From a virus, in IMG/VR virus record IMGVR_UViG_3300031857_000874, positions 1 through 31,466 of that record: DNA of 31,466 nucleotides. One strand, given 5' to 3'. Positions 7,103 to 7,987 of this stretch are shown here, piece by piece. The notes beneath the pieces were generated by a model, which saw only the letters and a list, made by a program, of their open reading frames with translations, was not told where the DNA came from and searched no databases. A program made the position numbers and the translations under genes. Each line of letters begins with the position of its first letter. The stretch's first letter is position 1.

Positions 7103-7247
7103 TTTTTATTCTTTCGTTTTCTTCCTCTATGTGTTTATTTAATAACGAAATATAAATTTCTCTCTCCCAAGGATACATTTCATCTAACTCAGTAAGCGAA
7201 TATTTGTAAAACTGCGCCATAGTAAAATTACTAATATAATAGTTCAT
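7086..7247 (-). CDS. gp51-like small tail/hub assembly protein, probably made by -1 frameshift from gp26
   Basis: The core of the frame is YSLTELDEMYPWEREIYISL followed by a charged helix. This is a short chaperone-like protein in the position of T4 gp51 or of the T part of a G/GT tail-assembly chaperone pair. An ATG at 7247 would give 53 residues and one at 7220 would give 44; neither has a Shine-Dalgarno sequence. The same frame is open upstream through the end of gp26, and a T TTT TTC slippery heptamer at 7280-7274 would switch ribosomes into it. That would give a gp26-gp51 fusion of about 300 residues (238 + 62). The frame ends by overlapping the start of the tape-measure gene by 17 nt. 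The gp51 name rests on position and a weak resemblance. Confidence 0.55.
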   Translation of the reverse strand: MNYYISNFTMAQFYKYSLTELDEMYPWEREIYISLLNKHIEEENERIKNAKKN

Positions 7248-7267
7248 CAAATTATCATTATTAATAG

Positions 7268-7987
7268 CTATTCGAAAAAATCTGAGATACCAGATAAAGT
7301 AACTTCTTCTTCGTATCCACAAGAACTACATTTAAAATTGATAACTTTCCTCAATTTCGGAACACTGAGATAGAATTCTAAGATAGATTTAAAACTCGTT
7401 AGATCTAGTCCTAATAGAAACTCTCTTAATTCATCTTGAGTATACTCATCATATACTTTATTTTCGTCGACAATTGTGTCTAAATCTTCAGATATAGCTG
7501 CAATTAACTTATCTATATTTCTTGTAATATTATATTCTTCTAGATACTTTGCAGATTTAATATTTGGATATCGCAAATTTATAACAAGATTATCTGATAT
7601 GTTTATTTCTTTCGATACAACCTTCGAAAAATCAACTTCAACATCTTCTAACGAAACTTCAATCTTATTAACATTACCACAAATATCTTCTCCGATAAGA
7701 TTATTGCATTTAAAAGATAGATTAGAAGTTTCACCAACAGATTTAGCTCTTATTTTAAGGAAGAGATACTCAATATCAAAGTATGCTAAATTTTTTGTCG
7801 AGAAGTTATTTGTTGAACAAGATTCTATGAGATCCGTTATCGTTTTTGATAATTCTTCAATTGAATTTGATTCTTGCATCATAAGAAGAATTTTTTGTTC
7901 TCTTACGGTGTAAGGTCTAAATGAATATATCTTTTCATTTGAAGGAATTGTCACTTCATAAGATGGGTGTTTCAATTTCGGTAGCAT
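7268..7987 (-). CDS. 26: gp26-like baseplate hub/tail assembly protein (T4_baseplate family, 239 aa)
   Basis: The N-terminus (LPKLKHPSYEVTIPSNEKIY then FRPYTVREQKIL) is characteristic of the T4_baseplate family that includes T4 gp26. Four cysteines, C94...C103 and C220-x2-C223, could form a zinc-ribbon-like site. The middle is acidic and helical. In T4, gp26 is needed with gp51, gp28 and gp29 for hub assembly; here its position between a tube-like protein and the tape measure suggests a tail-assembly chaperone role. AAGGAT lies about 10 nt upstream of the ATG, and the gene starts 12 nt after the gp54-like stop. The end of the gene holds a slippery heptamer leading into the gp51-like frame. 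Confidence 0.78.
   Translation of the reverse strand: MLPKLKHPSYEVTIPSNEKIYSFRPYTVREQKILLMMQESNSIEELSKTITDLIESCSTNNFSTKNLAYFDIEYLFLKIRAKSVGETSNLSFKCNNLIGEDICGNVNKIEVSLEDVEVDFSKVVSKEINISDNLVINLRYPNIKSAKYLEEYNITRNIDKLIAAISEDLDTIVDENKVYDEYTQDELREFLLGLDLTSFKSILEFYLSVPKLRKVINFKCSSCGYEEEVTLSGISDFFE
7274..7280 (-). other. Putative -1 programmed ribosomal frameshift site (T TTT TTC)
   Basis: On the minus strand the codons GAT TTT TTC GAA TAG end the gp26-like gene. T TTT TTC is a perfect X XXY YYZ heptamer in the zero frame, two codons before the stop. Slipping back one base reads CGA ATA GCT and stays open for 62 more codons to 7086. The location between tube-side chaperone and tape measure is where lambda G/GT and many other phages frameshift. 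I see only a weak palindrome (AATAGCTATT) just downstream as a possible stimulator. Confidence 0.65.

Follow-up and report, generated by a model that had tools for sequence, protein, structure and literature searches.

A conserved T TTT TTN heptamer points to −1 frameshifting between the gp26- and gp51-like frames of T4-like phages

Introduction

Is the gp51-like frame that overlaps the end of gp26 in T4-like phages a gene of its own, or do ribosomes reach it by slipping back one base on the gp26 message? We addressed this question in a viral sequence of 31,466 nucleotides (IMG/VR record IMGVR_UViG_3300031857_000874; the whole stretch is called the window below), for which a first-pass annotation had proposed a −1 programmed frameshift giving counterparts of the phage lambda tail chaperones gpG and gpGT. 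A 2022 article in Virology (566:9-15) by Vladimirov, Gautam and Davidson reportedly describes frameshifting conserved in several T4-like groups, with T4 using separate genes 26 and 51. The PRFect paper (PMC10885494) cites this work for T4-like phages in which the short chaperone gene stands apart from a second gene for the long, fused form, and PMC12846349 cites it for poly-T slippery sites in T4-like TAC-N genes. Frameshift-made tail chaperones of T4-like phages were already published in 2022, and the proposal made for the window is well supported and known.

Results

A slippery heptamer lies at the end of the gp26-like frame

The gp26-like gene, preceded by the Shine-Dalgarno-like sequence AAGGATAG, ends on the minus strand with ...GGT ATC TCA GAT TTT TTC GAA TAG (Table 1). 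The T TTT TTC reported at first pass is present in the gp26 frame, and a single sense codon, GAA, separates it from the stop. The −1 frame entered from the heptamer begins with CGA (7274-7272) ATA GCT and stays open for 62 codons up to TAA at 7088-7086; its product matches phrog_634 ('baseplate hub assembly catalyst') with an E-value of 2e-21, which bears out the gp51-like domain claimed for it. Recomputing the length of the predicted fusion gave the value of about 300 residues originally proposed (238 + 62 = 300).

Across the 20 main ORFs of the window, in-frame TTTTTTC occurs once in 9,925 codon positions, at this site, and generic X_XXY_YYZ matches number 60 in the 9,925 in-frame heptamer positions. 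The same ORFs contain 21 Phe-Phe pairs, and the T TTT TTC spelling is found only at 7274-7280. Conservation in relatives is a stronger test than this chance count.

Table 1. Features of the putative chaperone locus in the window
Feature	Position	Strand	Basis
Slippery heptamer T TTT TTC	7274-7280	minus	gp26 frame, phase X_XXY_YYZ, canonical
Zero-frame stop TAG	7270-7268	minus	sequence
gp26-like gene, zero frame, putative short tail assembly chaperone (TAC-N), 239 aa	7987-7268	minus	PF12322, phrog_150
−1 frame after slip, gp51-like C-terminal domain (TAC-C of predicted fusion TAC-NC)	7274-7086	minus	phrog_634, phrog_150 C-terminus
Internal ATG in −1 frame (rival start)	7247-7245	minus	not conserved in relatives
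Upstream gene, tail tube protein	8674-8000	minus	phrog_45 3.2e-29, PF23849 5e-6
Downstream gene, tape-measure-like, 820 aa	7102-4640	minus	layout and position

The two frames match T4-like gp26 and gp51 families and sit among tail genes

The gp26-like protein matched PF12322 T4_baseplate (5.6e-50, 170.5 bits against a curated cut-off of 24.5) and phrog_150 (2.9e-53). The latter profile has 282 positions, is longer than gp26 and covers both the gp26 and the gp51-like domains; its C-terminal part (positions 230-280) was matched by the −1 frame product at 1.8e-6. An NCBIfam search gave nothing useful, and a nucleotide search of the phages collection with the window gave no match. The 31 kb record contains only one gp26-like match; as it is a fragment of a phage genome, a second copy may lie elsewhere.

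The order tube, gp26, gp51-like frame, tape-measure-like gene stands as first described, with the tail tube gene identified by phrog_45 and the tape-measure-like gene by layout and position only. The ATG of the latter (7102-7100) sits within the last codons of the −1 frame. Its product has an N-terminus with many charged, helix-forming residues that is probably coiled, a hydrophobic segment at about residues 250-280, then a linker rich in Pro and, at the C-terminus, a lysozyme/GH19-like region. No tape-measure family match was found for this 820-aa protein; its layout and position would suit a tape measure that ends in a muralytic region.

Adjoining the tail genes, a plus-strand gene at 3852-4643 matches the TET-associated glycosyltransferase family (PF20691, 1.6e-12) and phrog_842 (beta-glucosyl-HMC-alpha-glucosyltransferase, 9e-17). 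This glycosyltransferase-like gene is a hint of possible modified DNA bases.

The heptamer is in frame at all 202 loci with a profile-detected −1 gp51-like domain

Relatives were drawn from IMG/VR and GenBank phages, on all of which the gp26 and gp51-like profiles were run; they include cyanophages, a pelagiphage, Cronobacter S13, a Vibrio strabovirus and Stenotrophomonas Bhz51. This survey yielded 212 loci with a gp26 match, and gp26 identity among the surveyed relatives drops to below 30%. At 202 loci the gp51-like profile matched a frame other than that of gp26, and this frame was −1 in 202 of 202. Conservation of the heptamer in related phages had been set beforehand as a point on which the frameshift could fail; T TTT TTN was in frame within the gp26/−1 overlap at all 202 loci and all 144 distinct junctions, with zero exceptions among these canonical-type junctions, counts that are not independent events because the surveyed sequences are related. 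The last codon of the heptamer was TTC at 86, TTT at 44 and TTA at 14 of the 144 distinct junctions, and the gp26 stop followed the heptamer after 3 nt in 114 and after 0 nt in 22. The codon before the two Phe/Leu slip codons ended in T in all 161 distinct sequences used for this count (AGT, GAT, AAT, TCT, GCT, GGT, ACT); in the same genes GAT makes up 77% of Asp codons, AAT 70% of Asn codons, and TCT plus AGT 50% of Ser codons.

The remaining gp26 loci comprise one with the gp51-like domain in frame (L041) and nine without a gp51-like match beside gp26 (T4, L034, L091, L092, L123, L108, L212, L207 and L210). The sequences of L091, L092 and L123 stop shortly past the junction, yet a T TTT TTC/T site is present, and that of L108 stops short of the junction. 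L212 (Variovorax phage V45v66) has T TTT TTC, followed by a domain too diverged for the gp51-like profile. Gene 26 of T4 ends TTC TTT GAG TTA CTA TAA, without a slip site, and is followed by gene 25.

Atypical loci and a structural model

Four Ackermannviridae loci (L207, L217, L218, L219) and Vibrio phage D533 (L210) have a −1 gp51-like domain after gp26 without T TTT TTN. The slip region reads ATT TTC ATT TAA in each of the four Ackermannviridae loci and CTT TTC AAG TAA in D533. These sequences make a non-canonical slip on T TTC a candidate mechanism in these phages.

At L041:4001-4873, on the same contig as L221, a ninth T puts gp26 and the gp51-like domain in one frame. We rejected this locus as a natural direct fusion: its 16 relatives at 72-75% identity all carry eight T, so the ninth probably arose as an isolated mutation or as a homopolymer error in sequencing or assembly. 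The L041 fusion, a relative of the window's, gave an AlphaFold model with a pLDDT of 86, which matched predicted viral gp26-like proteins. In the alignment behind the model (A3), gp26 C-termini were poorly aligned against gp51-like columns, so residues of about 220-270 are of low confidence. A Foldseek search of the model against the PDB returned no significant solved structure, with HK97 gp13 (2ob9) amid the noise (E = 1.9, prob 0.20), and a PDB profile search with gp26 returned nothing significant.

Start signals for the gp51-like frame are sparse

The frame could instead be a separate gene, started at the internal ATG by translational coupling or by re-initiation after the gp26 stop. This ATG lies 20 nt past the gp26 stop, and GenBank records, including those of cyanophages, do annotate separate gp51 genes. 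We examined start signals at 133 non-redundant junctions, defined by more than 25% mutual difference in an ungapped fusion-protein comparison that overstates distances at indels. An ATG occurred within the first 15 codons of the −1 frame in 29 of the 133 and any start codon in 67. In the window no Shine-Dalgarno-like sequence precedes the internal ATG, in line with the original description, and a start codon with such a motif in the first 25 codons was found at one junction of the 133; the same motif rule detected a Shine-Dalgarno-like motif at the gp26 start in 111. An independent gp51 start had been named in advance as evidence that would count against frameshifting, and on sequence the search gave no refutation.

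The −1 frame is also conserved from its first codons, before any usable start: Leu at position 9 after the slip (97%), Asn at 11 (89%) and 16 (95%) and Phe at 17 (98%) are kept without a start codon. A separately initiated protein leaves this conservation unexplained, and it leaves the invariant heptamer unexplained as well. In T4, moreover, the domain occurs joined to a gp26-like one. We consider a separate gene very unlikely.

GenBank gives the gp51-like frame as a separate gene from an internal codon in L205, L206, L213, L214, L215 and L216; if frameshifting is true, these entries should become joined coding sequences with gp26. In the cyanophage, pelagiphage and vibriophage records that we examined, genes called 'gp51 / baseplate hub assembly catalyst' are probably not stand-alone and would be better annotated as joined with gp26.

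Signals around the slip and the remaining alternatives

A purine-rich Shine-Dalgarno-like motif of 4-6 bases was present within 16 nt upstream of the heptamer in 134 of the 161 distinct sequences, nearly always 7-11 nt away; a conserved Glu/Lys-Gly pair explains part of it. Neither the window nor its close relatives showed such a motif before the slip. Downstream RNA structure was rejected as a stimulator in the window, where no stable fold was predicted (z = +0.67). Over the whole set, uncorrected for relatedness, the 60 nt after the site gave −8.7 kcal/mol versus −6.9 kcal/mol for a gp26 interior control (p 0.0016), a slightly greater stability that is too weak to build on. Since the window lacks downstream structure and its clade lacks the upstream Shine-Dalgarno-like stimulator, the slip rate there may be low.

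Synonymous change in the window's clade was 0.42 in the body of gp26 but about 0.06-0.17 between about 6 codons before and about 10 codons after the slip. The stretch 7240-7300 (minus strand) of the window shows this low synonymous change without a structure or a Shine-Dalgarno-like motif accounting for the drop, and some local signal around the slip may remain in this clade. One tentative and rather doubtful model is that a Shine-Dalgarno-like element lying 7-11 nt before the heptamer stimulates slipping across T4-like phages (cf. E. coli dnaX), and that the window's clade has lost this element and uses another, unstructured signal marked by the low synonymous change.

The upstream elements also bear on transcriptional slippage, by which RNA polymerase would add or lose a base on the T run and so create the fusion. 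The genome is AT-rich, and a run of six T (seven to eight at sites that end in T) might in principle permit it. A T6 run is short for polymerase slippage, however, and at most sites six T are followed by C or A. The run is kept in the ribosomal phase X_XXY_YYZ at all junctions, and the Shine-Dalgarno-like elements and their spacing point to the ribosome, which makes polymerase slippage extremely unlikely.

The chance is close to nil that the heptamer is a by-product of the Phe-Phe pair that is invariant at the gp26 end, T4 gp26 without a slip included, and that the −1 overlap is coincidental: T4 spells the pair TTC TTT, most Phe-Phe pairs in the window start with TTC, the slip phages always have T before the pair and TTT as first Phe, and TTTTTTA (Phe-Leu) sites exist too, so that this account appears already contradicted by the heptamer survey and the preceding-codon counts.

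Discussion

We conclude that the locus very probably encodes both tail assembly chaperone forms through a −1 slip on T TTT TTC, with gp26 as TAC-N and a gp26-gp51 fusion as TAC-NC. The site, its phase and its conservation, the conserved −1 coding from the slip onward and the gene order are read from the sequence, and they strongly support the programmed frameshift and the G/GT-like role put forward in the first-pass annotation. From them we infer the slipping itself, its rate and the chaperone function. Most ribosomes would terminate at the gp26 stop and release TAC-N, and a minority would slip back one base and read the 62 further codons to give the 300-residue TAC-NC. By analogy with lambda gpG/gpGT, both forms would coat the tape-measure-like product of the next gene and hold it, and the C-terminal domain of the fusion would recruit tube subunits.

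The genes that follow the chaperone locus were compared in two phages of different tail length. Two genes of 1565 and 1456 aa lie there in S-CREM2 (L215, 3484-12555) and two of 933 and 722 aa in S-N03 (L216, 6428-11397), whose tails measure 418 nm and 138 nm, respectively (PMC10665884). Gene length thus rises with tail length in this pair, and both genes may act in setting it, because the first alone seems too short.

The T4 proteins help to place the two frames. Residues 1-201 of T4 gp51 (249 aa) match PF12322 (3.9e-52), and the gp51-like domain lies at the protein's C-terminal end; by these matches gp51 is a gp26 paralogue with a gp51-like C-terminal domain, in its own gene. Because gp51 carries both domains, T4 would hold TAC-N and TAC-NC as two genes, with no frameshift. 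The suggestion that gp26 and gp51 may be the counterpart of G/GT thus stands, on sequence grounds, as regards their role, and T4 gp51 is not equal to the short frame alone. A review of the T4 tail counts gp26 and gp51 among the hub assembly chaperones, with gp51 required for assembly and missing from the particle (PMC3004832), which suits a chaperone.

Compared with known systems, T4 gp26 and gp51 both match PF12322, as the window's gp26-like protein does, and the C-terminal domain of T4 gp51 corresponds to that of the window's −1 frame; the T4 genes differ in being separate and divergently transcribed, with TTC TTT and no slip in gene 26. In phage lambda, gpG and gpGT are made from a locus between the tail tube and tape measure genes with the slippery heptamer G GGA AAG. 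The window resembles lambda in having a short form and a predicted −1 fusion, in lying between a tube gene and a tape-measure-like gene and in a heptamer close to where the short frame ends; its T TTT TTC differs, and the protein sequences appear unrelated. The chaperone locus of Vandenendeviridae and Andersonviridae likewise has a conserved −1 poly-T slip near the TAC-N end and a −1 frame open up to the tape measure gene, but it uses a GTTTTT motif in other phage families (PMC12846349). From the T4-like tail assembly chaperones of Vladimirov, Gautam and Davidson (2022) the window differs in nothing essential, its phage being uncultivated, and it agrees with the groups that frameshift. The window would add an uncultivated T4-like lineage to the phages in which a frameshift yields the two tail chaperones.
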